From Imbricaverruca yamaguchii (lineage: Eukaryota; Arthropoda; Thecostraca; Neoverrucidae), in contig JAOTOL010001559.1 in NCBI GenBank assembly GCA_034440575.1, forward strand, positions 1,347,001-1,411,000: a DNA stretch of 64,000 nucleotides. Reading direction: 5' to 3'. Made by a program: the position numbers and the translations under genes. Below are positions 6,463 through 42,795 of the stretch, piece after piece. Below the pieces are notes generated by a model that saw only the letters and a program-made list of their open reading frames with translations, did no database searches and was not told where the DNA came from. How positions within the stretch are numbered: position 1 is the first letter of the stretch; each line of letters opens with the position of its first letter.

Positions 6463-6509
<47 letters not shown>

Positions 6510-9946: not shown

Positions 9947-10464
9947 ACTTTGGCCGGTGACCTGTCAGCCTCTTGATCAGGGGACGGCAGACGGTCTGGC
10001 TCCGCTGCCGGAGAGCTGACTTTGGTGGTGACCTGTCAGCCTCTGTGATCAGGCGGACGGGCAGACGGTGCTACACGTGGCTGCCGCTGCCGGAGACGAG
10101 GTCGTGACTTTGGCCGGTGACCTGTCAGCCTCTGTGATCAGGCGGACGGGCAGACGGTGCTACACGTGGCTGCCGCTGCCGGAGACGAGGTTGTGTCTTT
10201 GGCCGGTGACCTGTCAGCCTCTGTGATCAGGCGGACGGGCAGACGGTGCTACACGTGGCTGCCGCTGCCGGAGACGAGGTCGTGTCTTTGGCCGGTGACC
10301 TGTCAGCCTCTGTGATCAGGCGGACGGGCAGACGGTGCTACACGTGGCTGCCGCTGCCGGAGACGAGGTCGTGACTTTGGCTGGTGACCTGTCTGCCTCT
10401 GTGATCAGGCGGACGGGCAGACGGTGCTACACGTGGCTGCCGCTGCCGGAGACGAGGCCATGGT
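9947..10464 (+). repeat. Tandem array of acceptor plus 5' half of ankyrin exon 6, 89-bp unit
   Basis: About six copies; the first is degenerate. The ttt of tttggccggtgacctg recurs at about 10021, 10109, 10198, 10287 and 10376. Each unit contains a pyrimidine-rich tract, gtgatcag, and then gcggacgggcagacggtgct, which is the first part of the true exon at 10409 (codons for ADGQTVLHVAAAAGDE). Only the last copy continues into the second half of the exon and a donor. Because 89 is not a multiple of three, using an early acceptor and reading through would break the frame. Confidence 0.93.
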
Positions 10465-10514
10465 CCGCTATCTCCACAGTCTACATGCCAGCGTGCAGAT
10501 AGTTGACAACTTAG
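10409..10514 (+). CDS. nompC: TRPN/NompC-like channel, exon for ankyrin repeat 6
   Basis: This exon enters in phase 0 after gtgatcag and ends in phase 1 at donor ttaggtgagc. It reads ADGQTVLHVAAAAGDEAMVR, then YLHSLHASVQIVDNL. NompC repeat 6 has GQTPLHIAAAEGDEALLKY and SIADNQ. The leftover G joins the first AT of the exon at 17010 to make Asp, giving DNL-DRTPLH as in NompC (DNQDRTPMH), a strong check on both boundaries. Its 5' half is tandemly copied upstream, so the correct acceptor competes with about five near-identical ones. Confidence 0.92.
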
Positions 10515-12943
10515 GTGAGCGACCCCACTAAGGTATGGAGGGATGAGCACCTGCATTGCCAGCTAAGCACATGGTGCCCCTGTGCTGGCTCGACGGCCCC
10601 TGCGGCACGCAACAAGGGACAGCTGCTTCCTCATGCAAACTGACCTATGGGGTCTCTGGCCGTGTAATCGGACGCACAGATCAGATCAGAATCTTACTGA
10701 GATATACATTTAACAAGCCCACTGGAGGTGGGACGAAATCCATCCAGCTCTCCGGTTTTCGTGCATAACCCCAGATGTTACCGGTCGATGTACGCAATTT
10801 TTGCGTACCTGCTTTTTAAATGTCCGGTTGTCGTTTAAAGGAAGTAAAACGGAAATCTGAGGAAAATGTTTCGCGTTAGGGACCGTTAAATTAAAAAATG
10901 TGTAGAGCCAGACCACAAAAGTCGGCGCTAATGCGCTTCCCGTGTATTGGCAAAAGGGTAGTGTCTGGGCAACATTAGCGATTTGTTTCATGTACATTGT
11001 TATGCTACATAGTTTCGAGGTCATTTTAGGTGACCGAGGTCAAGTTCATGACTGGTTAATGAAACCAAGCTTGGTCAACTGGAATGCTGTCATAAATGTA
11101 AATGATTGTCTTGGGATTGATGTCACTTTGCATGTTACTCCCTGCACATCCGGAAAACTACTGTTTGTCATTGAGTACCTAAGCTTTTCCATACTTTATT
11201 CATGTACTTCACTCCTTTTTTCGCGAAGTCGACTGCGCCGAGCCGCACGCCGGAGCAGTCGGGCGGGCGGCCTGGTTCTGGTAACTGGAACAGGTAGCTG
11301 ACCTGATAAAGTGCTGCTATATAGGTGGCTTGAAGTAAAATGCTGGGGCTAGATTCTGTATTGCATCATTAGTAATGTCCAAAACGTCATTGATGTCCAT
11401 TTTCGAGCATTCAAACAAAATCACGGCGATCCATAAAAAGCCAACCGACTCAAAAGAAGAAAATTTTGGCATATGTAGCCACATTAGACCTTGAAGATGC
11501 TGGCCTAATATCATGAAATCTGTACATAATAGAGTTAACTACCGTACCCATCTACCCTACGTATTTCGCTACACCAGCTTTATTAGGAACCGAGATATGA
11601 GGGGACGGAATCCGCCCCCTCCCCCTCCAGTGACGGCAATTTTCAGAGGCTCTCCGCCTCCAAGACGCGTGTCAATTGCTTTAAGCCTGCTCAAACCATT
11701 CAGTTTTAGTCAAACATTAGCCTTAGAAGCCCAGGTGAAGTATTAAGGTAAGTCCCAACGCAGTATGGTCATAGAAACTGCAAGTAGCATAACTGAGATC
11801 GCACACAAGTTATTCATCAAGGGTAGTTAGTGCTCTCACTCTGGCAAAGGGTCAGGCGCCTGCGAACGGTAATGATGTTCCTGGTCTTCTTGTGGAATGC
11901 AGATCTAGTGGAATGCACTAAGATGTTTACCGAGACCGCTGTATTATCAACATGTGCCATCAGTTATGACGATGAAGGCATTGGTACCTATAAAAGACTA
12001 ATCCTGCTTCCGCCAAATGCGTAATACTCAATATAAAAGGACTTGGTGTATGCCATACGCAATGCATGAGCATAGCACCGATAATGAGGGCCAGACTATT
12101 TTTTGGGCCAATTCCAACCAGTAATGTCATTAAGAATGTTCATCGTGATGTCAACCAGTAATGTTCATCGTTAAGATTTGAAGCATTGGGGCCCATGGCC
12201 ACCTGCACCCCTTCCACTATTCACTCTTGCATGACACAAAGCACAATTGCTCTCACTCTCTTTTGTATGTGATGTCTGACAACTTCGGAGATCAAATCCG
12301 ACGTTACCACTTAGAGTAGGCTGAATTTATAAAGATGTGTGGTGTCACAAGATCGTAGTTAAATGTTGGTAACACTTGTTAAAGCGGTACATTCACAGGT
12401 GAACGTGTATGTATCATGTATGGTATCACGTACCTCGGTGACGCCACGCTTTTGCGGCGGTCTGCAGTCGAGGTGCTGACGTCGCCGACGTGATAACACT
12501 TGAGACCAAGTTCCCAGAATCAAATGTGGAACCCATCGACTATCGTGATCGCCAATTGGACTTATCGCTTCTACAACATGGCCATATGTTGTGTATTCGT
12601 AACCCAGATATGATGGTCATATAAACCGTCTGAACAAAGATAAAGCTTGCTGGACTATACCAATGGCAGCGGTGAAAAAGTGGTCAGCCTGTCGCCTGCA
12701 AAATATCAGACGCGGCCGATCTGTCCAACCTGCCATATGTTGGAACAGATGCTTTCACGGATAGCATGTAATAGCGTTTGGTTTTGTCTTGATTAAGAAA
12801 CAAACACAGCACTCTTTTTCTGTTTGGTGGATAGATATCATGCAGTCAAGTAGTTTATGTGATATTATAATGCATGATTGCAATAGTTGCTGGGGCGCAT
12901 ACACAAGACTATGCCTTTACCCCAATCACGACGTAAGCTTCGA

Positions 12944-14916
12944 TGAACCATGTTCGTAACATTCGTTTACCACATTCCTGACGACCTCAGATTACTGTTC
13001 AAATTATTCAATTTCCCAATGGCATGTCACGCACAAGGAATAAGAGAGGTTGATCACTTCAAACGATATCGACGGGTAAAAATACAAGATTATTTATTTT
13101 GTCGCCTAGCATTTGTTTTTGGTTTCGGCCCAGGCATATTCAGATCCACTATCAAGCGATAGCCCATTGTGAACCGTTTAATAACATTTTGAAACCTGGA
13201 TATGTCAAGGTTAAGCCTCAAGGTCAAAAGCTGGTTTGAATTTTTCGAAGTCCTCGCAACTCGTCGCTTTGGGTTCAATTTGCACCAAAAGCGTGTCATT
13301 CGACGTGGCTTGTGCCGTATTATAATGTTACGAAACCGAACTAATTTTAAAAGTCAAAAGTCAAACAGATTTTGTATGTCGCCACGGATATTTTTATTCG
13401 CCCTATCTTTCTCACATCTGGTATTAAGCAACAGCCCGTGGTGAGTACCGATTAACAATTCAAACCGTGACATGTCAATGTCAAACTATAAGATCGTAGG
13501 TTTGCTTAAATTGTTCGAAGTTCTCACGCCTCGTCACAATGTCTTTAATTTTCATCAAATGAGTATCATTCGACGTGCTGTGAGGTACTCTAGCAAACCG
13601 TGCAGAAATCACATTAATTTGCAAAGTAGTCGAACTAATATATTCGGCCGCCACGCGTTTCTTCGTTTTCTCGCAAACTTACCCGTGTTTTGTACCAAGT
13701 GGCACCCCGTGGTCAACCCTCGAGTAACATTTCAACCCGGGGAATATCAAGTCAAGCCTCAAGGCCAAAGGTTAGTTTTGGGTATTCGAAGTCCTCGCGC
13801 TCTGTCGCTATGGCTTCAACTTGTATTATGTGGGTGTCATTCGACGTGGCCCGCGATACATGATCAGAATGTCCAGATATCGAAATAATTTTGAAGGTGC
13901 AGAAGATCCGGTGTATGTACAATGATTGTGTGTAATAGGAATAGGGGGATCAAATATATTTTTGTTTGCAGCCATTGTGATAGCAAGCACTCATATCCTA
14001 TACGACTAGGAGCTTCCCCAAAAAATCGGTCATTGCCAGTTCGGAAATCGTTCTCATCGCTTGTTTGCATTCAATGCAATAATATTAAATAATATTTATT
14101 CGCAATAATATTTTAATAACCAGCCGGAGATCATAACCGCGAGAGAGCAATGCTGTAATCAGGAGTGGATCCAGCAATTATCATAGGGGTACTTGCGTGA
14201 ACGGGCGCCATTTCTCTCAAGTGGCGCCAGTGCGAAAGCACCTGGAGGTGCTCCTCGGGCTGCAAAATTCGAGTGGTGGGTTAAACTCCGTCCTTCCAGA
14301 AGGACGGCATTTTTCCTTCGAAAACGAAGGGAGGTCTTTCCTTCGAAGGGGTGGCTTTTTCTTTCATAGTGGCGCCTCTGGCTGAAACATTCGAGTGGAT
14401 GCACTGTAACCTTTTCAGAGGGGCGCCTTTTCCCGGTCGGAATTTTCCATATCCGTGGCACATGCCCTCAGTGCCACATCCCTTACCCGCCCTGATTGTC
14501 ATTGCATCGAAATTTCTCCCCGTAAAACAGGAAAGCATGAGACAGGTTATTGCATGTCTATATTTACTACCATGAAACCATCGTCCAATGTTTTATGTTT
14601 TCCCGTTAGAAGAGGGGAACGTTTAACCTACTAACAGCATTGCTCCGTGGTGATTGTGAAATCTGGATCAGCACATACGACAAAACCTAGATGCTCATAG
14701 GCAGTGGCAAGGAGTGAAACTTCCTAATTTTGGCAGAACATCACCCAAAAGTATAATTTTTCACAATGGTAAATCTCAAAATTAGACATTGAGAATTATG
14801 TGATTAAATTCAAGGATTGGTTTGGGGGCGGGGCTGCACCTCTGTGCTGTCTAAGCTTACACCGTCCATGGTTTGTCCCCCAGCCTAATTTCGAAACCGC
14901 GGCTACATCCATTCTC
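12944..14916. mobile_element. Dispersed element, copy 1, with internal ~260-bp repeats
   Basis: Successive units of about 260 bp share phrases such as ttcgaagtcctcgc, ctcgtcgctatg, cattcgacgtg and caagcctcaaggtcaaag. They are followed by a module with gatagcaagcactcatatcc and gagagcaatgctgtaatcag, and end in cgaaaccgcggctacatcc. The same modules in the same order occur at 24.92-28.12 kb, and part of the tail at 32.78-33.18 kb. No intact protein was recognised. The left end is uncertain. Confidence 0.75.
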
Positions 14917-15604
14917 CAGGGTGTAATTATTACCACACTGAAAGCTCCATTTTAAGAAGTATTTTGCTGTCTAACTCAGGTGAGCCTATCCATGGAATTG
15001 AGTACTGACAGATTCTTAATCCTGTTAATAAATGTAGCATTGCAATTTTGTTCTTAAAATTGTTGTGAATGATCTAGATAATAGATTTACCCAATATTCA
15101 TTTTTGAGGGTTTCTGGAACAGCAAATGCATGCAAATTAGCGATTCAACTATGAAGGAATGGACTTTTACTTTATGCTTGCACATCATGCTTTTCATAAC
15201 CACGTTTTGTTCAACCACTCATGCAATTCCTTGCTCTTCCTGATGTTTCCAAACAGTATCAGTCCTGATTGCACTACGTCTGGAATTTAGAATTGTACCC
15301 ATCACTATGAATGTCGTAAAACACTGATGCATATTCGTATATCGCAGGTGCCATGGCATTCATCATCATTATAGTCAGAAAATAGCCATCCCGATGCAAA
15401 TTTCAATCATTAATACACGAGCGATAAGAAAACACACATATTGGACGGATTCGAAGTTAGTAGGTGATTCGGCAGTAGATCCAGCAGCAGATTCAGCAAC
15501 CATTCACACATTCACCATGTACTCCACGGCACATTTAAGATGTTCAGGAACGGATTCAGGAGCCCAGCGCACATTCGACTCACATTCAGTGCATATTCGG
15601 CATC

Positions 15605-15780
15605 ACATTCAGGAAGTTCAACAACACACTGCACAGCCATATTTTGCAGCACATTCAGGTGGTTCAACAACATACTGCACAGCCATTTTCGGCAGCACAT
15701 TCAGAATGGTCAACAACACACTGCGCATCCATATTCTGCAGCACATTCAGGTGGTTCAACAACACACTGCACAGCCTAAC
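15605..15780. repeat. Tandem repeat, about 48-bp unit, about 4 copies
   Basis: Unit contains cattcaggtggttcaacaac and cactgcacagccatattttg. The open frames across it follow from the repetition. Confidence 0.85.
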
Positions 15781-16502
15781 GCGCATTGAACACCCATTCA
15801 GCGCTTATTCGGCAGTACATTAAGAAAAGTTGAGCAGCAAATTCTCACTCGGCAGTCCAGCGCGCATTCAGCTCATGTTCAGCGCAAATTCGACAGCACA
15901 ATTAAAAGCCTCAGGAGCTGAATTTATTCTGAGTTGTTAAATTTGCTCCTGAGTCCACTGCCGAATCGTCTGCTATTTGTACTACACCAATGCCAACTAA
16001 ATCCAATGTTGGAAATATTGTGGTACTAAAGCACTCGCGCAAAGGAACAGTTATGAGATGTGGTCCATCAAATTCGTCAAATCTGCCCCCAAACTATAAT
16101 ATATAGTACCGTACTTTTCTTCCCGAATTCCTTTCAATGAGAAATAATGCCAGGGAGCATACTAGGAAATATCGCATGTGTGTTTTGAACATGTTTTCAG
16201 CAACACAAAGCTTTACATTTTATAGTAAAAATCACTACATATAGTTTGTATTAGTATTTCTTGGTATTTCTAGTGATGGGTGCATTAACAAATTTAGCTT
16301 AGAATGTTGAACCTAGCAATGTTTGCTTGATGAACATGCGCAACTGAATACAACTTCCAGGTTTTAGATGCATCAGCGTGGGTGAATCTAAACGTTGTAT
16401 TATGTAAATGTTATATCACAATTTTAACCGGTAAAAGATATTGATGCGTGAGCTTGTTGGTCAGATAATTGGAAAGGTTGTCTTAATTTGTAGGCCTATC
16501 TT

Positions 16503-16505
16503 CTA

Positions 16506-16574
<69 letters not shown>

Positions 16575-16680
16575 ACGTGTATATATGTATGTATATACAT
16601 ATACATATATATACATTTATATATGTATATATATACATATGTATAAATATATATATATAAAAGTATATGTATATACATAA
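16503..16680. repeat. TA-rich microsatellite
   Basis: Pure (ta)n of about 60 bp followed by interrupted tatg/tatac runs. Confidence 0.95.
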
Positions 16681-17009
16681 GTTGACCTCGCAGCAGGATC
16701 TGTGGTAACATGCTAACTGACGAGGGAGAGGTTAAAACCACAGTTTTCCGCAACTGTGCATTTTGCTGGACAATTCATGGATTCACACAAAATTATTTAT
16801 TTTCGTGCATAGTTTTATCTGTCGACGTCGTCATCCTGATGCACCTCAATTAAAATACGCACCGCCCCTCAGCACCAATTCCTAACGGATCGTGGTCATA
16901 CTGGCCAATTCATGGCCATCTGATTGATGGCCCCGTTGAACACCGTGATGGATGGGTGAGTGCGGCTCGTCAGAGGCGCGACTGTTGAGAGCCTCGACGG
17001 TGGTCCCAG

Positions 17010-17206
17010 ATCGGACACCACTGCACGTGGCGGCACAGCACGGCCACACCGTAGTCGTACAGACGCTCGCCGACAAGTTGCACGCGTCCGTGCTAGACCG
17101 GACCAAAGACGGCAACACCCTGCTGCACATCGCCTCCCGCAACGGCCATCCTGGCGCAGTGATGACAGCCATCAAGACTGGAGTTCCCCTGCGGATGCCA
17201 AATAAG
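17010..17206 (+). CDS. nompC: TRPN/NompC-like channel, exon for ankyrin repeats 7 and 8
   Basis: This is the exon that first identifies the gene. It enters in phase 1 after ggtcccag and leaves in phase 0 at aataaggtgaca. Repeat 7 reads DRTPLHVAAQHGHTVVVQ with TLADKLHASV. Repeat 8 reads RTKDGNTLLHIASRNGHPG and ends GVPLRMPNK. NompC has ILADKFKASI, ERTKDGSTLMHIASLNGHAE and GVYLHMPNK at the same spacing. Motifs such as RTKDG and MPNK are not general ankyrin consensus, so they argue for TRPN orthology over a generic ankyrin protein. Confidence 0.95.
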
Positions 17207-18600
17207 GTGACATTTGGAAAACGGGGTTCGCTTCAGACTGAATTGGCGGGCAAAGCTTCGCTGATAAAATTGCATCCTCTAGATTGCTTTTTAATGCTTA
17301 TTTTATTTTGCAGCTCATTATAGGTGACATTCCATGGGGTTGAAGTGCTAGGTCCTTCCCATCCCGATGTTTGAGGAATCCTTGGCATCAGGCTTATAGG
17401 GTGTACATAGATATTCTTGGCGCAAAGCGTATGGTGACCTCCTCCAACCTCTAGATATAAATTCTTAAGATATATTTTTAGCATCGTAGTTGATGTAATG
17501 ATGTGCAGTCATGCTGAAAAAGCAAATATCGGTGGGTTTGGATGGACGGCCAAGGCTATTTAACCAGGTCGTTTTGCCGTCCCCTGGCATATGACATTCA
17601 TAAACCCGCCTAGTGACTAGTCATAAAGTGCTTGCGACAACATCACTGGCAGCAAAGGCGTCTTCATACATACACAATATTTGGAATTGGATAATGAATG
17701 GAAGATCATGCAGCTGCTCAAGCATTGATTATAATTAAAAGCTTGTGGTGAGGGCTTTCCACTATTACGGGAATGAGTGGGTAGGAAGTCCCCCGTGGTC
17801 TCTTGTTTTGGGTGTAACTTGCTATCTAAGTCACATTCCTGAATCATTCGCGATTTGTAATGTCGGTTGGTTGGTTGTTTCTTGGTGTTTATGACTTTTG
17901 AACAGCCTTTGAACTATTGGAACGGTTATCCTGAAACTTGGTGGCTTCTCATAACAGTTTGTCTATTTGGGGTGACAAATGCAGTACGTATGTTTCACAC
18001 AGGGGAGCCTAGTGTAAGCCGGAACTTATGTGAGCTACAGGGAGGCTCGAATACCATGATATTTGAAAAACGTGCTATTTTCTATCGAAACCTTGCATGA
18101 AGCTTGTACTTTATACCTGCCTCTTACCTATCTTTGACAGCATTTGACCGTTCTTCACCAAACTTGGCAGACAATGACTATTCGCTGCACAACTTGAAAT
18201 AATGTAGTTCTTATGCTCTTCGGATTCGCGTCAAGCATGGATAAGACAAGGGTAAATTGTTACTTGTGGCGCTCATGCAGAGACTAAGCAACTAGAGCTG
18301 CATATACCAGTATAGGACAAATATAAGCTTTTGACCATTGTTGTATTTTGCCACCTACGGCATCAGTGGTAAGAGCTTCGCTGGTATTTCGGAATCAAGC
18401 AAGCTAGCGAAGCGAAGCAAACCCAGCATATAGCCTGCTACGGGGTTTGCTGATTGACAAGTGTGACCGCGTGGCCTATTGGTAGATCCCATGGATGAGG
18501 TCAAAGGACACATTTCATTGGCATAAGCTATTTCAGTATGAACTCCAAATCAATTCGTGTGCATGTAACCCAATGTGACCACATTCAACCTTATTCTTAC
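17207..18600. other. Intron, no gene seen
   Basis: First part of the phase-0 intron between repeats 8 and 9. Some phrases (for example cctgaaacttggtggcttct) resemble low-copy arthropod interspersed repeats, but no coding or RNA feature is recognised. Confidence 0.5.
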
Positions 18601-18666
18601 TCTTGCAATGCCTCGAATATTTCATGAGATACTGGAATTAATGTGGCTCTTTTAAATATGCGTAGA

Positions 18667-18719
18667 GTTATATATATATATACATACATACATACATATA
18701 TTACTATAACTTGTATATA

Positions 18720-18766
<47 letters not shown>

Positions 18767-18795
18767 CTTGTATATATATGTATATATATGCACAG
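18667..18795. repeat. TA-rich microsatellite at the 3' side of a CR1-like element
   Basis: (ta)n with tatatac/tatatgt variants. It sits immediately after the C-terminal end of the minus-strand retrotransposon and may be its tail or the microsatellite into which it inserted. Confidence 0.9.
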
Positions 18796-20034
18796 ACATA
18801 AAGACGTAGACATAGAAGATCAGTGCAACTATGAGCCACAAGTGCACTTCTTGGTTGCACTCTGGATACTCAACTAGTTGCCCACCAAATCCGTCGATCA
18901 TCCCTCCCTGGAATACTGAACGCAAGCCATCTATTCTTATAATGAATGTCTATGCTGTTTTTAAAGATGCTCAATGTGGTGCTACTGGTAATGGTTTCTG
19001 GCAGCTGGTTCCAGTGTTCAATTACCCCGTTGGTGAAGAAAGACAATCTTCTCCCGCTCCTGTTGATACTGATAGTACTTGGGCACCCAGCAAGTATGGA
19101 GCCTTCATATGCTACCTACCTACATGCATGATTTTACACTTATCAAAATTTAATTTCATTCGCCATTCTTTGGACCACTTCACAAGTTCGTCTAAGTCTT
19201 TCTGCAGTGAGATATCCTCATTGTGACCGTTATTACCCTAAAGACCTTCAAGTTATCCGCAAATTTCGACGCCATACTGCTTAGGCCACTTTCAATGATA
19301 TTTACAAATATAATGAATAGTAGTGGCCCCAGTACTGACCCCTCAGGGACTCTAATAAGACGATTTTGTCATGATAGCTTTGTACCACTTAGTATCACTC
19401 TCTGCTGCCTATCTGAAGGCCACAACTCTATCCATTTTAGGATGCTACCTGAAATGCCATGGACCTGAAGCCGCATCATTAACCGTGAACGGGGTACCTT
19501 GTCAAAGGCCTTACTGAAGTTACGATATGCTACATCAACCTTTTTTCCCTGATTAAATTGTTCTATAGCGATGTTTAAAAAGTCCAAGAAATTTGGGAGA
19601 CACGATCGCCATTTCTTAAACCCATGTTGAGTATCTTGAATCAATCAGTTTCCTTCCAGATAACTAACTATTCTATGCTTGATAAATTATTCGAGTACCT
19701 TGCAGACTAGGGATGTGAGGCTTACTGGCCTATAGTTGTCAGCTTTCCCTCTTTCTCCTTTCTTGAAAATTGGAACTACATTTTCCCTTTTCCAATCTGT
19801 TGGACTTTAATTTTGTGAAACTGATCTACAAAATATACTAAGTAGAAATGCCAAGTCATTTTCAGCTTCCCGCAATACCCTAGCATAAATTTCATCAGGT
19901 TCTGCTGCCTTGTTGGGCTTCATTTTCTTGATACGATTGAGAACAACATCACTATCAATGAAATCAACATCGTTTACCCGATCACATGTTACTGAACTGT
20001 GGTGTACTAATGGCAGATTAGTCACATCTTCCTT

Positions 20035-20035
<1 letters not shown>
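18796..20035 (-). pseudogene. CR1/L2-like non-LTR retrotransposon, 5'-truncated RT
   Basis: Read right to left, frames give the RT N-terminal region (VLNRIKKMKPNKAAEPDEIY), the palm (YRNFSKAFDKVPRSRLM, then ILKWIELWPSDRQQRVILSG), a GSVLGPLLFIIFVN block, the KFADN block in place of YADD, LDELVKWSKEWRMKLNFDKC, and the terminal HWNQLPETI...SIFKNSID region typical of CR1/L2 elements. Stops and frameshifts, and the loss of the second catalytic Asp (ADN), show it is dead. Both edges are TA microsatellites. Confidence 0.88.
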
Positions 20036-20040
<5 letters not shown>

Positions 20041-20099
<59 letters not shown>

Positions 20100-20128
20100 T
20101 GTGTGTGTGTGTGTGTGTGGGTGTGTGT
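20041..20128. repeat. (TA)n(GT)n microsatellite
   Basis: About 56 bp of pure (ta)n followed by (gt)n, adjoining the 5' break of the CR1-like element. Confidence 0.95.
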
Positions 20129-20701
20129 ATGGGCGGGTAGATTTAATGACAGCGCATATCCGGATATCCTTGAGAGATACGCGGGAATGTATGCCCAGTA
20201 GGGGTACTTCGTATCTAGTTGTTTCCCATGTTCTTTTCAGCACTGACAACTTTCTTGAAGCCACTACCAAACTCATTGGGCACCCCCAATGTTTTTCTTC
20301 AGTCATGGCCATATCAGCCTGGTACTGCATGAATGCATGCTAGAGGAATTATTATAATCCAATTATTGACAACCGTTGGCTAAGTAGGTGGGTTAGAGTA
20401 TCCAACGGGTATTGAGGATTAGACTGAAATCCTAGTTGAGATAATTATGATCTTGAAGCTATCGATAGCGCAAAGTCAAAATACATACAAAACATAATTA
20501 TCAATCGATTATGTGTCCGCCCGAAGTGCACCATGTTAGCAACAGACAAAACAAATTGGACGGACAACCCAACATTAGGTCGACGAATGGCCTCTCAAAT
20601 GTACTAAATCGACACCCATGTTTGGATGGCTGATATAGCACTGTATGCCTGTTGACTTTGAGTGCATAGCTATTGAGCTGGAGTGTTACCGTTGCTGGCA
20701 G

Positions 20702-20800
20702 GCGGGGTCACGCGCTATCCATACTGCTGCCATCGCCGGCCACCCTGCGGTGATCAGCGCCCTCGTCAGCTCTGGCGAACAGGTGGACGCCAGAGACAAG
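20702..20800 (+). CDS. nompC: TRPN/NompC-like channel, exon for ankyrin repeat 9
   Basis: Exactly one 33-residue repeat, phase 0 to 0, between ttgctggcag and gacaaggtaacc. It reads AGSRAIHTAAIAGHPAVISA, then LVSSGEQVDARDK. NompC repeat 9 (GARSIHTAAAYGHTGI and LLQKGEKVDV) shares the unusual xIHTAA core where most ankyrins have PLHxAA, which supports the repeat-by-repeat assignment. The donor gtaacc is less common than the GTGAG(T/C) type used by many neighbouring exons. Confidence 0.94.
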
Positions 20801-21095
20801 GTAACCAAGTAGTCCATCCAGCAATGGCCCAGGCACAGGAAGGTGCAATTATGTGGGCAACTCATAGCATAGGTAAGAAGTGTGGAGGGTAGGGAAGGCA
20901 AGTAGATGGGATCCCAAAGATGTGTAAAGATGTCGCCAAGGAAGAGCTAAATCGTATCCGCTGAGTTTGGTACCTATTATGCAGTATTTGCAAAGTAAAT
21001 AAACCATTTTAGAAAACCGTCCTTAGACAGCCAGTAGGTTTCTATATTTCCATTCCATTTTAAGAAACGAGTTATGTTTTCCGGCTTGATTCCAG

Positions 21096-23100: not shown

Positions 23101-23180
23101 GTGAGTTGTGTATGTGTTTCGCTCTTCTCTAGACTTCCATTTTGGCTTCAGCAGTGTCCTGGGCGCACCGGCAGCGCTTC

Positions 23181-30836: not shown

Positions 30837-30924
30837 CATGTATAGTATGCTTTCGTTCAGCCTCTTTAACTTGATTAGATCACTCAGAACCCGATTGATG
30901 TTATAAGCAATTGCACTGTTTCAG

Positions 30925-32260: not shown

Positions 32261-32268
32261 GCTAGCCC

Positions 32269-32748
32269 CAGTGGCGTCGCCACGAAATTCTTCCAGGGGG
32301 CGAGATCGAAAGGGGGCCTCCTGCTTCCCGAAAAGCGGCCTCCATTGTGTTAGGGCCTCCTATTGTTTTTAGACCCTTAGTATGGCTCGGGAATGGGAAA
32401 CTGAGGGCTGGAAGGCCTCCTTTTCGTCCTGGAGGGCCTCCTTTTCGTCCTGGAGGGCCTCCTTTTCGTCATGGGGTCCCTTTTCGTCCTGAGGTACCTT
32501 CTTTTCGTCCTGAGGTGCCTTCTTTTCGTCCTGGGGGCCTCTTTTTCGTCCTGAGGGCCTCCTTTTCGTCCTGGGGATTCGTTTTCGTCCTGGGGGCCTC
32601 CTTTTCGTCCTGGGGGCCTCCTTTTCGTCCTGGGGGCCTCCTTTTCCTCCTGGGGGCTTCCTCAAATTTCAGGGGGGGGGGGCGCCCCCCAGTCTCACGG
32701 CAGGGGGGGCAATTGCCCCCTCTGCCCCCCCCGGTGGCGACGCCCCTG
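32269..32748. mobile_element. hAT-type MITE with 8-bp target duplication
   Basis: The ends are cagtggcgtcgccac and gtggcgacgcccctg (imperfect TIR), flanked on both sides by gctagccc (32261-32268 and 32749-32756). An 8-bp TSD with a CAG-starting TIR is the hAT signature. The interior carries about ten degenerate 19-21 bp units of ctccttttcgtcctgggggc. No transposase. Relatives in the window are the large element 44361-59577 and its internal ends. Confidence 0.9.
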
Positions 32749-32779
32749 GCTAGCCCCAACTAGCCCCCAGTGCCACCCT

Positions 32780-33180
32780 CTGCATCCGCCCCCGGTTGAC
32801 ATTGCACCGAAATGTAACCCCATAAAATAGGAAAACATGGAGAAAGACTCGTGTAAGTCCATATATACTACAGCAAAACCATTTCCCAAATAGTTTCAAC
32901 ATTCCTATTGCAATAGGGCGACGTCTAACGCAATTACAGCACACCCATATGCGGTGAAACTTCTTAATTCCAGCAGAACATTCTGTCATCAAAACATCAG
33001 ACTGATCAAAGGTAAATCTGACAGCCAGATCTGGAAAATGAAGTGGATGAAGACCGATAATTTATTTTTGGTGGTGGCGGGGGGGGGGGCGGCGTGTGCT
33101 TCCCTCTATCCTGCCCAAACTGTCCCCGACCCCGATTTGTCCCCCTCCCCAATTTCGAAACCGTGGCAACGTCTATGCCC
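32780..33180. mobile_element. Dispersed element, copy 3 (tail only)
   Basis: Shares with copies 1 and 2 the phrases attgcaccgaaatgtaaccc/cattgcatcgaaatttctcc, gcaatagggcgacgtctaac and the terminal aatttcgaaaccgtggcaac. Only the 3' part is present. Confidence 0.6.
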
Positions 33181-33775
33181 TTACGTATAAATATACCCCT
33201 AAAAGGTGAGGAGGACGGGCGAGGGACCAATTTAGAGCTGAAATTCCCACGAAATGAGAGCTAGTCAGGACTGTTGAGGGCTGCAATTGGTCCTTACAAG
33301 CAGGAGCGGGCCCCGAGGGATGAAAAGGACCTCTGAGAGTCAGAGAGGGCTGAATTTAGGTCACCCTGAAGTTGAGTGCGGATCCTGATGGATGAATATC
33401 ATCCCTTGGGATATTTTCTAATTGTTTTTTGCCGGCGATTGCAAGGAGAAATACCAGACAAGAATATAAATATAGGATCCCTTTCAAAATAAAGTGGGAG
33501 GAGTCTAAATAGCTGCGTGGCTCCCTTCAGATATTCGCCAACTCAATTAGCCAAATTAGCTACTAAATTCCCCAGCCCCGCTCCTCCCCTGGACCAAATA
33601 CTGGCTACGCCACTGCTCGGTCCTTGTGGGATGTTTGCCGCTGCATCATCGAACCACGTTAGCTTCAGAGTCGACTGACTTCCCAGAACCACCCACTCGG
33701 CCTCGGTGGGGTGCATGCCATTAGATCAACTGACCACGCCATCCTCAGAGTCGAAATGTGGCCGGTATGCGACAG
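33181..33775. other. Intron, no gene seen
   Basis: Rest of the phase-0 intron before repeat 16. No recognisable feature. Confidence 0.5.
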
Positions 33776-33894
33776 GGGTGCGATGTGCAGCAAGTGGTGA
33801 ATCAGCAGAACAGTGGCGGTGACAGCTGTCTGATGGTGGCCGCCGCTGGTGGGCACCAGCAGCTCGTCAAAACTCTGCTCGACGACGGCGCAAG
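33776..33894 (+). CDS. nompC: TRPN/NompC-like channel, exon for ankyrin repeat 16
   Basis: Phase 0 entry after tatgcgacag and phase 2 exit at gcaaggtgagg. It reads GCDVQQVVNQQNSGGDSC, then LMVAAAGGHQQLVKTLLDDGA. NompC repeat 16 (NRQSSVGWTPLLIACHRGHM, LVNNLLANHAR) has the same polar, Gln/Asn-rich linker and a core without PLH. The partial AG codon is completed by the G that opens the exon at 42738, giving Ala-Arg-Val-Asp, which equals NompC ARVD across the junction. Confidence 0.93.
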
Positions 33895-36687
33895 GTGAGG
33901 CGCGGCCAGGCGCGGCCAGGCGTGGCCAATTTGGAAATGTATTGAGGGGGCCCCAAGTGTTGATGCACTATACACCCCTCCACAACCACAAACTCAGCGA
34001 ATTTCTCCCACCTTATTTTGAGATCTTAGACATTCTAACTTTGTATTTGATGATGCTTATACTTGTATATATTCAGCATCACCACCAAAGAAGAAATCGC
34101 TCCACAACATATGAGGTCACTTAAGGCCCATTTCATGACAAATCAACGAATGAAAGGGCCAAAATAATACCCAATATTTTATGTTTGATGAAAATATTTA
34201 TGCAAGGTTATCTGAAGAGCCGAATCCAGCTATGCCATTTTTAGAAAGAGCAGGTCAATGGTCAAGGAGCTATAGTCTCGGAAATTGTTTAGATGTTACC
34301 TAAGAAGGGTGTCTTTTGAAGTGTTTAAACCCAATGAAGAACCGTCTTAATTATACAAAATTACACCTTTTTGCGTCCAATGTCGCCGCCTGTGTGTCAA
34401 TTTCAGCGATAACCTCATTCATTTTCGACAGTTTCGACATTAGCATAGCGCACCCAATTTACAGCTCCACATTCGGCCCAGCAGCATTAGGTTTAGTACC
34501 AGTGCAACCTGTTTCGGCAGAACTGCACTCGAATTCAGATTTGCAGTGAATATTTCGGCATGTGCGGATGATTCAGTAGTAGTGCGATGAATTTCGGCAA
34601 AGTGCAAGCAAATTCGACGCGGAAAATACTCCGCTATGAGACTAGTATTTGTCCCATTCGGTTGTGTATTTATTCATCGGACAATAATGGACAATCTTTG
34701 ATGTTTTGTGTATCCAATTGTATATCCACTGCATAATGTGACTTTGGCTAGCGGGAAGTTACTAAGCGGCGCGACTCAGCACTGTAACACTTAACCAATC
34801 AGAGGCCAGTAATACTTCTTTCAAGACGCGTATGCTGCAACCACAAGGTCAAGACGTTACGGCTCGTTTGCACGTTGTCATGCCCACTGGTGGATCCAAA
34901 GGCCACGCCCGCCCCCCCGAAGCGCCTCAAAGAGGGGCCATCATGTTTCCCCCTCCCCCCCCCGACACCAACAGAAGTAAACTAAATTAAAATACGATAA
35001 CTTTGAAAATAGCGCTCCGGGTGAAAGAATCTCCAATTATAAACACATTTTCATAATTGACTGTAAGCCCAACATGGTAGCATAGTAGACTCTGACACAC
35101 ATCGAGGGTTCTATGCTGTTTACGTTCTGCTTACAGCAAGACTTGACAAAATCAGCAGTTTCATTATTCCTTTAGTCAGATAGCTTCATTAATTTAGTTT
35201 AGCCAGTAACGGGGAAGCAAACTCAGTGAGCCAGCTTTGGAAAGCGAATTTTGAACAGAATGTTTTGTGCGTGTGTCCAGTTAAGCCCAGTTGAGCAACA
35301 TGCTTCTTATGTTGGTGTTGTGGGTCTCTAAGAGGAAGGGACAGGCTACGTTGGCTGATTTTTTTCAAAAGTATAGCAAGATGATGTATGTAGGTATTTA
35401 GATCCTGAATAAGAGATAACTGGTTAGTTGGCAGGTAAGGGAGATTCGGGTGGTAAGACCGCGCTATCAAACTTTAAGGGTTTAATTGCAGTTTAACACT
35501 CGCACGTCCGGCGGTCCACGCCAACTTCGCATGTCCGGGGGGGGGGTAGATGTCTGCCCCCTTAAGATCTTAGGAACTATGCTAGCTAGCGACAAACGGA
35601 AAACGGCGTTGGATAGCTGGTGACGGGCTCTGTCGAAAATGTGTCGGTATTTTTTTTCTCGCTCAGGTCAACATTCAGGTCACTGGGCCTTCATAGGTCA
35701 AATTCGACCAGATTGGATGGGACTCAGATATTGACACATATCTCAGGATCTGTAAGAGATTGAAACAAATGGCGAACGCTATTCGACAGTCCTTGAAATG
35801 CGCTACTGACATTAGGCGGTGTTATTTAAGGTCAGGTCAACCGAAACTCAGGTCGAATTCATGAATTCATGGCCTCAGGTCAAGGCTTAGGGAGGTCACG
35901 TAAGGTATCAATCGACACGTCTTGACGATGCAAGCGCAATGACGGTAATTTCAGCCTTCTAGCTCAATGCAGTGCGATGTAATGCGCATAAATGTGTAGT
36001 GATCTCACGTAACCTCAGAGACCTTGGTGAGGTCACTGAGCAAAAATGTCAGCGGTAACATTGAGCATAGCTTCCGTCTACATTCCACAACCGTTGTGAG
36101 ATCATTCCGACCGCAAATATGTAACTAGGAAACATTTTACCATAGCCCTATAATGGGGAAGCCATGGCAGCGACCTGACCTAAGGTCAATGCTACGAGAA
36201 AAACCCGACATACATGTTATGTTCCCTGATGAGATCATGACATGCTATAAGTTTCAAATCAATCGCCCGATTATTGTGGAAGTTATGCCACCTAGAACTC
36301 CGAGTGTAGTTGGGTCACTTCGCCTGACCTGGTGACATGACCTGAGATGACCCAGGATTAAAAATGTACGAAGATATGCGGAAAAGACCAATGAACAGCT
36401 ATGCGAGGTTTGGCTTTGCTAACCCTATTAGTTTGGCGGCAAATGAGGAAACACCGAAGGCGGGCCGATATGTGTCCCCCCCCCCTCCGGACGTGCGCGG
36501 ATTAAAGTATAAAAAGATATAAGGGAAATCATTAAAGATGATCAAGTCCAATCGTGTTTACACCAATGTTAACTGCAGGTGAACTGCATACATATCACTA
36601 GATACAGTTACAAGGAACAATTCTTGACTTCTTGAAGTTTACTAGATTGCACAAGTCCTGCATTGACTAATTCTTTGACATCAGCCT

Positions 36688-36730
36688 CCAGGGCTCAGGA
36701 GACCCCTCCAGCTGGTCTCCTGAGCCCTGG
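36688..36730. other. Perfect 17-bp hairpin, 9-nt loop
   Basis: Arms ccagggctcaggagacc and ggtctcctgagccctgg flank the loop cctccagct. No transposon or gene context was recognised. With 17 uninterrupted GC-rich pairs it is clearly above the background. It could be a cloning-unstable cruciform, a recent micro-inversion, or part of a small hairpin RNA, but the stem is short for an animal pre-miRNA. Confidence 0.9.
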
Positions 36731-37028
36731 GCCTTCCATGCCTCTTTTCCTGTGCGAAGTACTTACCAGATGCAGTCATCTTAACAACCCTTACAATAAG
36801 TCGTGTGGCAAGGCCAGCTGAGCTGCTCCACGGGGGAGTTCATTAAGTTCTTCTTCTAGGGGTTGCTTAGGGAGCAGATGAGAGGTGGCACTGATACAAA
36901 ATCTGACCAGCTGATCAAGTCGACAATGCTGAAAGTATCACGACTGGTGTCAGGTGTCCTTCTGATTCTGACATAGTAGTCCCTTAGCTGAGTGTCTGGG
37001 TCCTCCTCTCCCCTGATGGCGACTCTCT

Positions 37029-37480
37029 TCATCCCTCAATCCTCTCCTTTTGATCCTCAGAGCACAGCAGTATTTGGATTACAATTTCACGGCGGACATA
37101 CCAAGCAGGCGCTCGGAAGCCGCTCTGAAATGGACTGAAATGGTTTTCACTTTCAAGGAAATGACGTACACGTCTATTTACCATTCGTTCAACAATTTTG
37201 CAAGAAGTTTGCGAGTGAGATAGGGTGGAAATATTTTGGGCAAAGCGCATCTTTCCCTTGCTTCTTTATGGGGATGATTCCACTTTCGGGCCAGGTATGA
37301 GGAAACATCTGTCGTTCCCAGCGATGGTTTATTGCAGCAGAAAATTTGCATTGGTTAAGCTCTGATAGATCAGTAAAGGAAGCATATGGAATTTCGTGTG
37401 GCCCGCACTTTTACCGTAGAAGACGATGAGGGTTTGGCAGGATTCATCGCCTTCTTGTAACAGATCTACATCGCTAAGTA
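37029..37480 (-). pseudogene. Non-LTR retrotransposon RT fragment
   Basis: The minus strand gives INHRWERQMFPHTWPESGII, then PIKKQGKD, followed (after a damaged stretch) by SCKIVERMVNRRVRHFLES and SPFQSGFR. These are RT motifs 0 to 2 of Jockey/I-type elements (W...FP..WK.A.VIPI.K, the ER-VN-RL helix and the QSGFR turn). The rest of the element is absent. Confidence 0.75.
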
Positions 37481-39497
37481 AGGTATGAAAATGCATTCGA
37501 TCCTTTACTTACAATCACTCAAATGTTGCGCAAAGAAACATTAATTGCGCATCTGATGGGGTCAGTTTCATGCACGTTCCATTATAAATTCATGCGGTAC
37601 CTGAGGATCATAGCGAGGCATGTTCAAGTTTCTTAGCATGGAGACCGCTGGTCGAAAAGTGGTTGTTCGTGTTGCGAGGGGCGCCACATCGTAAGTATCG
37701 CACTGGTACGTCCAGAACACATGTATTGTGTGCATGGGTTAATTTACTTTGAAACAAGTGTCGGCTGGAAATTCTTGTCGAATAAATTGATGCGTACTTT
37801 TGCGTTCTTTGCGGGCATGTCTTAAAATGGCTAAGTTATTAACCAATGGCAATAAATATATTTACCAAGTATGCAAAATTGCGAGCACCGACTGCAATGC
37901 ATAATCCACGGCCCATTGCTATTTAAAGTCTACCACACAAGAAAAGCCGCATACAGGCTGCAATCGATAAATTCAATATCAATAATCATGTTTGTTTCTA
38001 CATATGGAAACAGTTAAAGACAGCTAGCGTGAAGCGCATGGAAAACGTGATGTTCCATTTTTAAACCATGAATCTATTTAAATCTTAATCGAAAGCGGAT
38101 TTTTGTGTGAGACGTATCGAAACACAGATGACAACCGACAATCGGGTGGGCGCTACGCACTGTGTTCTTGGCCGACTTATTTGCCACCATAAGTGCTCTG
38201 ATCCATATAAAATTGATAAAAATTCCACAATGTTATTTTCACCGACTCCAAGACCCTCTACGTAAGGTACAACCGTCCGACAGTTGAAACGTTTCATGAT
38301 GTCATACGTTTTCAACGGCCGAAATCCTCATTGCCCGCAATGCTTTATAGGGGTAGTTTATAATCTATTATCTTTTTCAGAAATGAGGCTACAGCTATAA
38401 AATAAAGACCATGTGATAGAAAAGATCTTTCTCTACCAAAACGAGAATTTCAGTTTTTACCTGAAAATTACCTGAAACCCGATAAAGGAATTCAAACAGG
38501 TCGTCGCATCATGCAGGCTTCGTCTCCAGCTGGCACCGTCCCATAACTTTTTTTCATCGACGAATGTTGTTAAGGTAGGAATGTGGCGTGAAACTCACGC
38601 AAATTCTGGGACGGATACAGGGGTTTTGTTTGATGCACTTTTGAGGGAACACTTGCCCCTTCAATCTCGACTTTTTCAGCCAATAATTTCAGGTTTTATC
38701 ATGGTGCCCCATTGAGTGTACCTCTCAATCTATATGAATTCCCCTATTGCCTTCATGTATTGCGTTCCTCAATAATTGCCAGAAGCAGCACCTGTGAAAG
38801 GATATAAAGGTCCATAATGGTCACGCATTGCGAATGGCCTATATCCAACTTCCGGTAACATGGGGGAGGGGCAGTTGTCCCGTAAAAGTAAGCTCATTCC
38901 CCGCGGTGAATCTGATGTGGTGCTAAGCGGATGAAGCACACCGAACGTGTAAATTCACCAATGTTTAGTTCAAGTTCTCCAGGTCCTTGTGTCATCTGAA
39001 GGTCAACACAGGTCAAATAAAGCAAATTAGAAATGGGACATATTGTATTCAATGTTGTTTCATGTTCAACGAATTATCCAGATTGTAGACGTAAGCTAAA
39101 TTGACGTTGCTATCACGGTTCAGGACTATACAATGTGATCCTCGGTAACGCTTTCGTAGTTTGAGTACAAGGAACACGAAAACAGGTGTATTGAGAACTT
39201 GATTGTCCTGAATATTTTTCATCACGCCCTGGTTACCTCTCCCAACTGGATTTTCTGCTATGCAAATACGTGTCCACTGGTATCACTGCCGTGCAAGGGA
39301 AAAAAGACGCAGGTGACATTTTCTGGCCCAAACCACCTTTCTACACCATACGATAGCTATTTCGTAGACGCCGATTGGTAAAAACCATACCCATGTTTAG
39401 GTAACATACGATTTCGAAGAACATTATTTTCTTTAAAAAAATACGCACGTGAGGAACAACGATATAGATATCATGGCCAAAGGACGTATGAAACAAA

Positions 39498-39735
39498 CTA
39501 GCATTCGATGACAACATACCTTGATGGAATGTTCACAGACGGAATAGCGTTTTTGCGCAAGAACAGCTTGGCCTTGAAGCCCATAGACCGTTTCAGTAGG
39601 CATGATGGGTCAAAGTCACCTTCCGCAAAATGGTTCGAACAGATCCGAGCCGTCTTCAAGTTCATCCGGTCCTGTCTCGCACACAGGTGCACCCACTCCG
39701 CTCTCCTTTTAATATCTTTCGGAAAAATTAAAATA
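39498..39735 (-). pseudogene. THAP-domain fragment
   Basis: The minus-strand frame reads FPKDIKRRAEWVHLCAR, then ICSNHFAEGDFDP and LRKNAIPSVNIPSR. These are the core features of the THAP zinc finger (FPKD, W, CSxHF, F, and a terminal AxPSxN in place of AVPT). The N-terminal C-x2/4-C part is not in frame; an intron or decay could explain that. THAP domains occur in P-element-type and Harbinger/IS4EU transposases as well as host proteins. With other transposon debris around, a transposon remnant is more likely. Confidence 0.65.
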
Positions 39736-40011
39736 CGAGATGTCAGGATTGTTCCTGAATGATGAAGTACACTTAGCCACAGAACAGTATCCCATTACTA
39801 GGAGCACCTACTCAAAGACCAGAAAAGCCTATAATATATCGTACGCAGCCGCACCACTACCAGATATTTGAAAGGACGGTTGTATTCTGGCGCAGTAAAT
39901 GCGCAAGAAATGCCTGACGAATGACGTCAGAAATTATAGTGGGCCTATGGCCGCTGAAGGGACGGTTCCCCCTAACTGACTCTAAAACAATCTTTATGGG
40001 CCATCCAGCAA

Positions 40012-40560
40012 ATGGAAGACATTCACCACCCTCGTGCATATGGCATTGCTAGCGTCTTCCTCTCCCTTACATGCCGGCGAAGCGTTGTCTTCCTCTGGAT
40101 GTCTGGCCATTCCGGAATCCCAGGGAATACAAGCCCTGACCAGCTAGCAAATGAGCCTACTAACCTCCTAATACGTTTATGTCTTTCCATAGCACTTTCG
40201 GCTGCCTTGCATTAAGCCAAGCTGTGCTTTTCGACATCCTCCAAAATAAATGGCGAGATAATCGCATTAGCCATCTTTATCGCATCAAGCCTATCCTAGC
40301 ACCTTGGTCTACGTCCACCCGATGCAGCCCAGAACGCGTGTTTTTTTTTGTCTCCGTTCAGGGCTCCGCTTTCCCAGCCACCAATCTACTCCTCATGCAA
40401 TGTACATCTGACCGTAAAGCATTTACTTCTGATATGTACTCTCTATGATCTTAAACGGCGCCATATCGTGTCTTCCATTCGTGCTTCCACACTGATGAAG
40501 GATTTACCCGGCCTTCTGGGTATTATATCCCTTCAAAACTAAACGGTCTTGTCCTGGACT
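40012..40560 (+). pseudogene. Non-LTR retrotransposon RNase H and C-terminal domain remnant
   Basis: One frame carries VVFLWMSGHSGIPGN and PDQLAN, the late RNase H motif of I/R1/Jockey-type elements (WVPGHxGIxGNExAD). After a frameshift near 40.2 kb come NKWRDNRISHLYRIKPILAP, then CNVHLTVKHLLLICTLYDLK, the terminal Cys-His motif (C..H.TxxHLLxxC). Frameshifts and the lost acidic residue make it a pseudogene. Confidence 0.75.
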
Positions 40561-40816
40561 ATATAACAAACTCCGGTCTCGCCCGCAAAATATGAGCTCG
40601 AAATTCCCAAAATATATTAATCCTGCTGACCTTAATACGACTTCAGGTTGTCCTCTACAGCACAACACATGCAGGTATCGCACACGTCACATTTACCGGC
40701 ATGAGGAACGCCACGCAAGCTGGAAAAAATGCGCGGCCTTCCTGAAAATAGTGATGCACGTGGTTTTTTCACCGTCGCATTTTTTCCAGTTTTATAAATG
40801 ATCAACAAATACACAT

Positions 40817-40842
40817 CAAACACACACACACACACACACACA
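40817..40842. repeat. (CA)n microsatellite
   Basis: Pure (ca)n run. Confidence 0.95.
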
Positions 40843-42558
40843 TGGAAGGTGGAGTCGAGGCGCAGGACAGATGTCGAGAGAACTACTGTCTATATGTTAT
40901 CTAGCGACTGTCTACTCTACTTGGCCTTCCACATCGCCCTACGGTCGCGGCAGTTCTCCTTACCTGCCGTTCAAATTGGTTTTGAAATGTGTGTCCAGAT
41001 GATCGTACAATGTACATAGCATGTTTTGTAGTACAAAATTTCGAACCGCTACTATATTTCTGGCAATATACGTGTTCTCAGAGCATGGCAGGGACCACGA
41101 TGTTTTTTTCGTCTATGCGATGAACTAGGCAATGCCCCTTACCTCTCGATTGTGCACAAGACATCGTTTCCGCCTGCTTCGCGGTTGGTTACAACCTACC
41201 TTCTTAACCTACAGCATGTAGTCTGGTGTCCGGATCAGCCGGGCTCCCTGGACCTCGAGGCCCTCCTCTGCCCGGCGCTGACTGTTCCTCATCTCAACCT
41301 GCTCGACCTAATCAATCGGTTTCGAGTCGGATTTTGGTCGGCGCCTGGAGAACGGATTTAGTCGGGCGCCGGGAGATTTCTCGGCGTAGGGATTGTGGCG
41401 GATCGAATCGGTAAAGTAACACGTTCCCCTTCGGCCGAATATCTTTGGTCAAAGGCCAACACAAAAATAATTAATACATGTCAACGTTCGTCTTGTATAA
41501 TTGAAAGAGGCTTGTTTAGAAAGTCATGTAAGCCATGGCTTCCTACCTATTGTTTTTTTTTAAGAATAACAATTTTAATAAAGTGTGTAACAATAACAAA
41601 TAGCAATGCTCACTAAGTGTTGCAGACTTTATTCTAACATTGTATCATAAGCCATATTTGGTTTACGTGTGACTCTTGTTGGTTCAGACTTGAACTGGAG
41701 TGCGCCATATCAAGATTGAATATAGGGACATTGGGCATGTAGGTACATATGTAAATATAGAGCTATATATGTAATATAGCTTTATATGTAATAATAGCTT
41801 TATATGTAAATATAAAGCTACTGGTGCGGTGGATGTGCTGCTGATGGCAATTATTGTTCGTGTGTCCACAATCTCAATGGCAATGCGATTGTTGTCGACT
41901 CAATATTTTGCGGTAGTGTATGCAGTTTTGGCAATGTCTGCACATTGATAAAATGTTATGATACGAATTCAAGCTCCATATGCTTGTGTTTCCCATTGAT
42001 GCTGTGTGCAAATATCAGTATGCCAAGGCAATTGTAGATGAGTGGCTTTCCTGATTTGCCAACCAATTTGGTTTAAAATGTATCAGTTTCAGCTAATCTC
42101 AATATTTGATTAGATTAATGTGTGCTTCCAAAGTGAACAGCAATTTAACTAGTTTGTGTTTTGATAAATTTGCACTTTTGCAGGATAAGATTGATAGTCA
42201 ATCCGCTATTCAATCTAAATATGTTATTTTCCGTACAAAACATGCTACTTGGTATCCCCTATGTATTCCAAGTCGAATGCTGTGTTTCATTTTGTTCATA
42301 TTAACTTTCTTCTCATCAACATAAAACGCATTAGGTCAATGGGGGATCCACATTGAGGGAATAAGATCAACATTGGTGAGGCCATGACCCCCACAAAAGG
42401 ATTGAAGTCGACGCCCCTGGGTGAAGCTGATTGCCAAGGTTTGGGGATTATCCGGCGGACGATGAATGCCTCCGCTGTGCTGTGCGATGTGCCGCTCTGA
42501 TCATCCTCCCCCTCCATTTCAGTCAATTGTGCTCGTGATAGCATGGTAAATCTTCCGT

Positions 42559-42795
42559 CGTGTCACGCTGTGTCTGCAGGGTGGACCTGCTGGACGTCCA
42601 GGGTCGGATGGTACTACACCTGGCCGCCCAGATATCGGCTGTCACGCTATGTCTGCAGGGTTGACCTGCTGGACGTCCAGGGCCGGATGGTACTACACCT
42701 GGCCGCCCAGATATCGGCTGTCACGCTGTGTCTGCAGGGTGGACCTGCTGGACGTCGAGGGCCGGACGGCACTACATCTGGCCGCCCAGGCTGGA
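42559..42795 (+). repeat. Three tandem copies of acceptor plus 5' part of ankyrin exon 17, 79-bp unit
   Basis: Each copy has tgtcacgctgtgtctgcag, then a piece encoding VDLLDVQGRMVLHLAAQ. Exon-like starts are at 42580, 42659 and 42738. Copies 1 and 2 end in gatatcggc and re-enter the next acceptor. Copy 3 continues into the complete exon. The unit is not a multiple of three, and reading copy 1 into copy 2 meets a TGA. Copies 1 and 2 share gtccaggg-cggatggta, where copy 3 has gtcgagggccggacggca, so copies 1 and 2 are closer to each other than to the functional one. Confidence 0.94.

Follow-up and report, generated by a model that had tools for sequence, protein, structure and literature searches.

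Mirage-like tandem arrays at exon edges of a crustacean NOMPC gene and of unrelated genes

Why would a single gene carry, at one exon after another, tandem copies of a splice site together with part of the adjoining exon? The question is raised by a stretch of 64,000 nucleotides (hereafter the window; positions 1347001-1411000 of contig JAOTOL010001559.1, in a 767 Mb assembly) from the thecostracan crustacean Imbricaverruca yamaguchii, in which an earlier note had named five such arrays and ascribed them to a common mechanism, such as replication slippage or template switching, at ankyrin-coding DNA. Tandem amplification of a splice site with a partial exon does recur in this gene, a NOMPC/TRPN channel gene, at 12 of its 45 usable junctions. 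We consider it probable that the arrays are mirages, a structure described earlier in amphioxus: GC-rich duplications of exon edges that are tolerated via splicing, have grown as minisatellites and occur in unrelated genes, with ankyrin repeats unnecessary.

The host gene and its junction arrays

Judged from its sequence, the gene in the window is the ankyrin part of the NOMPC/TRPN mechanosensitive (touch) channel. The splice phases of its 13 plus-strand exons merge into a single frame across GT/AG junctions, and the spliced product of 594 residues matches fly NOMPC (PDB 5vkq) over residues 233-823 with few gaps (517.8 bits), its long ankyrin array being colinear with that span. The top full-length match was an uncharacterised Amphibalanus amphitrite protein (P0121); together with the Pollicipes match, it makes a barnacle-like source probable. 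Pollicipes, a goose barnacle, supplied a close but partial model (P0006, ankyrin-3-like), which skips or truncates many exons and is a broken gene model, perhaps through such arrays; nothing was drawn from its cut-short exons as a sign of Pollicipes mirages, as exons are shortened at many places.

1614..43672, + strand: ankyrin-part exons of NOMPC/TRPN, with frame-joining GT/AG junctions and the 5vkq match
1614-1700, 2049-2162, 10409-10514, 17010-17206, + strand: NOMPC exons 1-4 in the window
20702-20800, 21096-21189, 22220-22333, 23006-23100, + strand: NOMPC exons 5-8
29914-30180, 30925-31008, 33791-33894 (start less certain), + strand: NOMPC exons 9-11
42738-42957, 43472-43672, + strand: NOMPC exons 12-13

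Examination of 200 kb around the window placed further exons on both sides, the outermost at window-relative -17 kb and +102 kb, giving a gene of ~119 kb. Exons at window-relative 99011-102049 match P0121 residues 1633-1836, and the ion-transport domain (PF00520) lies at P0121 1638-1792, so that the domain is placed via P0121 and not on the organism's own protein. With 24 exons placed, 45 junctions were usable; three exon ends and two homology-only exons were omitted as uncertain, and two donors among the 45 read GC, not GT. The exons near window-relative 80050 and 86764 appear to close with GACAAG before gccagt, which suggests GC donors.

A position-blind scan for tandem copies at shifts of 25-130 bp over the gene part of the window yielded 19 loci, against none in five Markov shuffles. 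Six of these reach 5 nt or more to either side of a splice junction, and none covers both ends of an exon. This corresponds to 6 of the 26 window junctions, each with a unit that joins one splice site to 12-63 nt of exon: the acceptors at 10409, 29914 and 42738 and the donors at 21189, 22333 and 42957. All five arrays named in the earlier note are thus present, and its list was short by one, the donor at 42957 having been overlooked.

9946..10462, + strand: acceptor mirage of exon 10409-10514; 89-bp unit with 49 nt of exon, four full decoys (surplus junction copies) and one deletion-rich 71-bp unit
21170..22020, + strand: donor mirage of exon 21096-21189; 44-bp units resembling doubled 22-mers, 25 junction copies, 15 with GT
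22271..22454, + strand: donor mirage of exon 22220-22333; two copies, both diverged, the donor GTGGGT being intact in one
28130..29941, + strand: acceptor mirage of exon 29914-30180; 13 decoy cassettes (one truncated) within an 18-bp minisatellite
42561..42789, + strand: acceptor mirage of exon 42738-42957; 79-bp unit with 52 exon nt, two decoys (acceptors before 42580 and 42659)
42946..43091, + strand: donor mirage of exon 42738-42957; one diverged 74-bp copy with an intact GTGAGC

The cassette before exon 29914 consists of the acceptor and 23 exon nt, interspersed with the 18-bp repeat. At 21189, the junction scored 34 against older repeats at 21661-22045, while shuffles reached at most 26 (0/300 at 34), and this donor array seems to be built on a 22-mer with the junction inside it.

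Scanned over the whole gene at shifts of 20-180 bp, with the threshold used in the window (the Markov shuffles cover the window part), the span held 50 tandem loci. The 12 that include a junction comprise 5 acceptors and 7 donors, with the exon part of the unit again 12-63 nt long. Beyond the window, the affected junctions are the following (window-relative positions).

-6280: donor mirage, 47-bp unit
-4482: acceptor mirage, 63-bp unit, its single decoy having lost AG
81374: donor mirage, 26-bp unit of 19 exon and 7 intron nt
83386: acceptor mirage, 55-bp unit
83594: donor mirage, 33-bp unit
100590: donor mirage on a pore-domain exon, 61-bp unit

Unit geometry, decoys and splice-site choice

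The earlier note had taken the shared geometry of the arrays, each breaking inside an exon and including one splice site, as evidence of a common mechanism. This argument is not supported. The NOMPC units measure 22-89 bp (22-106 bp over all mirages measured) and the exons 84-361 bp; since most units are shorter than the exons, a unit holds at most one splice site. The geometry is therefore forced by unit size and requires no special mechanism. By this reasoning, half an exon plus one splice site is the only form that a tolerated duplication at an exon edge can take.

Protein homology is consistent with the exon-adjacent site being the real splice site at each array. For instance, at exon 83386-83594, which has arrays at both ends, use of the last acceptor and the first donor gives, by eye, the protein length of P0121. 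When 46 window decoys (4 at 10409, 13 at 29914, 2 at 42738, 25 at 21189, and 1 each at 22333 and 42957) were read onward, every one ran into a stop codon. Outside the window, decoys met a stop in 28/29 cases at -6280, 1/1 at -4482, 13/13 at 83386 and 7/9 at 100590. We found no new intron inside former coding sequence: the window decoys lie outside the coding sequence common to relatives.

These stop codons bear on whether the decoys have a function, either in slowing, sharpening or regulating splicing through multiple splice sites or in directing transcripts to nonsense-mediated decay. That all 46 of these window decoys reach a stop would suit such a role (two arrays outside are mostly open), as would the retention of GT/AG at the aligned place in 143 of the 175 extra junction copies counted in the gene, a lower figure since a 2-nt shift masks some GTs at the 100590 donor. 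However, unit length, copy number and side differ between junctions, and 32/175 copies are without GT/AG at the aligned place, including the sole decoy of the -4482 acceptor. Both decoys at 42738 have four exon-part differences from the real exon in common, and three of the four alter an amino acid; this suggests that the decoys homogenise with one another and have lost coding constraint. Moreover, amphioxus mirages reportedly leave splicing undisturbed, according to the accessible parts of PMC3087553 and PMC3902484. We therefore regard functional decoys as quite unlikely. Selection for disabled decoys was also considered, on the observation that all four full decoys at 10409 have an upstream AG that is absent from the real acceptor; this idea was dropped since decoys elsewhere match or beat the real site.

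The cassettes at 28419-29914 mostly comprise an acceptor, 21 nt reading AGNTALH and a GTGAGG donor-like site. Each could be an in-frame micro-exon, repeated about a dozen times.

Junction excess, other genes and exon GC

Do junctions carry more arrays than chance would place there? Circular shift of the exon map gave 2.0-2.3 expected junction loci in the window versus 6 (p=0.005-0.007), and 5.1 versus 12 in the gene (p=0.00045). When births were placed uniformly by unit length, the window expectation was 0.46 (p=5e-5) and that of the gene 0.99, with 12 reached in 0/5000 draws. Births weighted by GC raised these values to 0.89 (p=0.0003) and to 1.63 for the 50 loci of the gene, and 12 was again never reached (0/4000 draws).

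We then looked at junctions of other genes. This survey is small and non-random; exon ends were taken as the ends of homology hits, and the sequence near the closest arrays was read by eye. Altogether, mirages stood at 26/151 junctions (23/145 after removal of near-duplicates), with clear cases on eight contigs. A translated search with an ANKRD28/52-like tick protein led to a relative on contig C896, where all seven exon hits listed were taken; 4/14 of its junctions had mirages, with units of 39, 58, 91 and 57 bp. Eight further ankyrin exon hits, chosen from the other 39 listed for short open frames before their sequence was inspected, gave 4/16, two of them within one paralog pair, bringing the ankyrin exons outside NOMPC to 8/30. 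The exons of that pair (L037/L038) are ~90% identical and have a common donor mirage at the same junction, so the array may predate their split.

Two families encoding no ankyrin repeats were surveyed as well. For myosin, 24 of 72 listed hits were used (the 2nd to 20th with neighbours in the same stretches, the first, a single long open frame, being skipped), and 2/48 junctions had mirages; arrays beside six acceptors (L045, L051, L057, L058, L060 and L062) went uncounted because no exon part was seen by eye. For kinesin, the first 14 of 126 listed hits gave 4/28 clear mirages, which occupy both edges of an exon that exists as two near-identical copies separated by 570 kb, with two cases of short exon part (L066, L070) excluded from the strict count. 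The two kinesin copies (L067/L068) lie on one contig and have identical coding hits, and their array units and the order of these units differ. The pair may have arisen by recent duplication, or one copy may be a haplotype retained in the assembly.

These counts speak to the proposal that ankyrin-coding DNA itself, through repeat homology or structure, provokes slippage or template switching. Ankyrin exons do exceed others, at 19/70 versus 7/81 junctions (Fisher p=0.004; NOMPC as a whole contributes its 12/45). Mirages also rise with exon GC, from 1/28 below 0.55 through 3/30 and 5/51 to 17/42 at >=0.65, an effect with p=0.0003 when ankyrin is left out of the model. In the joint model, the ankyrin effect weakens to p=0.04-0.25 while GC keeps p=0.01-0.03, depending on the counting rule; all these p values are optimistic, as junctions of the same gene are non-independent. 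Each unit, moreover, copies its own junction, and clear mirages occur on the NOMPC pore-domain exon, on two myosin exons and on kinesin exons, where both edges are affected. These non-ankyrin cases rule out ankyrin repeats as a necessary cause and remove the tie to ankyrin-coding DNA that the earlier note had drawn; we hold an ankyrin-tied mechanism to be quite unlikely. As for slippage or template switching as such, that part of the proposal fits the short shared sequence seen by eye at some unit ends.

Origin, turnover and relation to known mirages

The exon part of the window units is coding sequence conserved in relatives, and hence the exon was the source and the array the copy. For the exon part, the closest copy matches exactly at 10409, 29914, 81374, 83386 and 83594 and at 70-78% identity at 21189, 22333 and 42957; since nearest copies range from identical to this diverged, births are recurrent. 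Within the 89-bp array, variable columns number 3/37 in the exon part versus 0/49 in the intron part, a difference that is not significant (p=0.08).

A contrary direction, in which exons took over existing satellites, was weighed through genome-wide searches with the 10409 and 29914 arrays. The 18-bp repeat beside 29914 also occurs on three other contigs at ~70% identity and fills kilobases of the same intron, as satellite capture would have it. On those three contigs the splice cassette was not found, the matches covering cassette-free stretches of the query among the best candidates scored, and the 89-bp array matched only itself (best candidates scored, very common words skipped). The earlier note had held that arrays away from exons would point to capture; this is borne out for the 18-bp repeat and not for the cassette, which looks local in origin. 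Together with the gene's own conserved exon in the units, these results from two of the six window arrays lead us to reject capture of whole arrays and to consider satellite capture very improbable.

A further concern is the assembly itself. The deletion-rich 71-bp unit at 9945-10015 aligns to a decoy with 18 gap columns and a single substitution, and similar deletion-rich patches were seen by eye inside arrays near 841-895 and 29023-29070. Such units suggest uncorrected long-read sequence, and copy numbers are therefore approximate. Nevertheless, substitutions separate the copies, with a divergence of about one quarter at 22271 and 42946, and clear mirages are not confined to one contig. A pure assembly artefact was rejected on these grounds, and artefact in general strikes us as extremely doubtful.

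Taken together, we favor a mirage account in four steps. First, replication slippage or microhomology-driven template switching would tandemly duplicate 20-100 bp of GC-rich DNA straddling an exon edge; the unit ends at 29914, for instance, have ACGT in common by eye. Second, as follows from the observed geometry, the complete exon stays at the outer edge with surplus copies on the intron side, the frame remaining intact if the exon-adjacent site is used. Duplications born at edges would be tolerated because a unit with one splice site leaves the complete exon outermost and the frame intact, whereas those born within exons would be purged. Third, and in part borne out by the copies themselves, the array would grow, lose units and homogenise like other minisatellites. 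Fourth, in a manner that fits the protein homology, the spliceosome would pick the site beside the complete exon. The process would strike several unrelated genes, mostly at GC-rich exons, with no need for ankyrin repeats.

Several observations count against this account. The bases covered by arrays predict 3.95 of 26 window junctions and 8.6 of 45 gene junctions within arrays, versus 6 and 12 observed, and coverage alone therefore yields no strong excess. GC-matched intron positions give an expectation of 9.6/26, above the 6 of the junctions, although we think this control is circular since array makes up much of the GC-rich intron DNA. The excess of junctions over the GC-weighted expectation has no explanation. 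Ankyrin exons are richer in mirages, and GC accounts for this in part only. Decoys meet a stop in only 5/42 cases at the 81374 donor and 12/35 at the 83594 donor; with these two largely open arrays, it is not universal that decoy use is fatal. Lastly, the microhomologies at unit ends were judged by eye only.

It is conceivable, though we hold it rather doubtful, that the duplication process favors exon edges beyond what GC predicts, for example through coupling to transcription, splicing or exon-marked chromatin. If so, a sizeable share of all junctions would own arrays of duplicate splice sites, amounting to thousands of natural tests of spliceosome choice, and exon-edge duplication would continually supply new introns and displaced splice sites.

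Other repeats and open frames lie around the junction arrays. The minisatellite at 23180 appears by eye to be related to the repeat at 28135, and a block at 24906-28110 appears to break the 18-bp minisatellite; it resembles 13100-14900 by eye and is perhaps a mobile element inserted twice. A 68-bp array of 13 copies at 316-1206, 0.4 kb upstream of the first window exon, has a unit that reads DLVTLLTIAGDV then a stop and is faintly ankyrin-like; an ankyrin exon was sought at its left edge, where the translation was unconvincing by eye. Among the matches listed, the NOMPC flanks held no recognisable neighbouring gene, only retroelement-like fragments.

23180..24768, + strand: intronic 18/36-bp minisatellite with no exon part, sharing its intron with the 28130 array
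47930-49084 and 54703-55398 (- strand): open frames that resemble retroelements, by eye similar to reverse transcriptase and gag
55432-57799: 154-bp satellite whose halves look mutually reverse-complementary by eye

How do these arrays compare with known systems? According to the accessible parts of PMC3087553, amphioxus mirages copy an exon-intron boundary, at a 5' or a 3' end, in tandem in the manner of a minisatellite, with units of 10-160 bp; they are known in Adh3 and in the globins BflGb6 and BflGb9, and keep splice signals in many copies that are homogenised within arrays. PMC3902484, likewise as accessible, adds PGBD5 and mentions troponin C. The NOMPC arrays agree with them in units that span the exon-intron boundary with exon and intron parts, in striking both acceptor and donor ends (5 and 7), and in minisatellite-size units within the same range. 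They differ from the mirages of this cephalochordate in their crustacean host, in numbering 12 in one gene and occurring in several genes, and in three exons with arrays at both ends (two in NOMPC and one, present in two copies, in kinesin). The NOMPC/TRPN gene, with its ankyrin domain colinear with 5vkq and its downstream channel exons, is only the carrier of the arrays.

Related structures have been reported elsewhere. PMC2812944 describes, in its accessible parts, internal tandem repeats at exon-intron boundaries of human duplicated genes, where minisatellites similarly overlap exon edges and can supply splice sites; those repeats change exons or create introns in young paralogs, whereas protein length appears kept here. 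Intron gain in tandem repeats is treated in PMC2891723 and PMC10809524, as far as their accessible text goes. Splice signals are multiplied there as here, but here the copies sit beside an already existing junction, toward the intron, and a new intron was not seen. The earlier note knew of no described case with so many arrays in one gene. The published amphioxus mirages overturn this as regards the structure; no arthropod mirage, and none this numerous in one gene, was found in the open-access literature searched by titles and abstract starts, which is not proof of absence. The structure type is therefore known; new are the host group, the density at which the arrays occur and their presence in several genes.

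Mirages have been reported, in the accessible text, from a handful of amphioxus genes; their frequency among the junctions sampled in this crustacean suggests that they may be general in some animal genomes. Gene models in mirage-rich genomes may, as a consequence, be broken or truncated. In this one gene a junction can have tens of near-identical acceptors or donors, of which presumably one is used, and the gene is thus a natural test of exon definition. The arrays also show the presumed starting material of intron gain by tandem duplication and of intron sliding.

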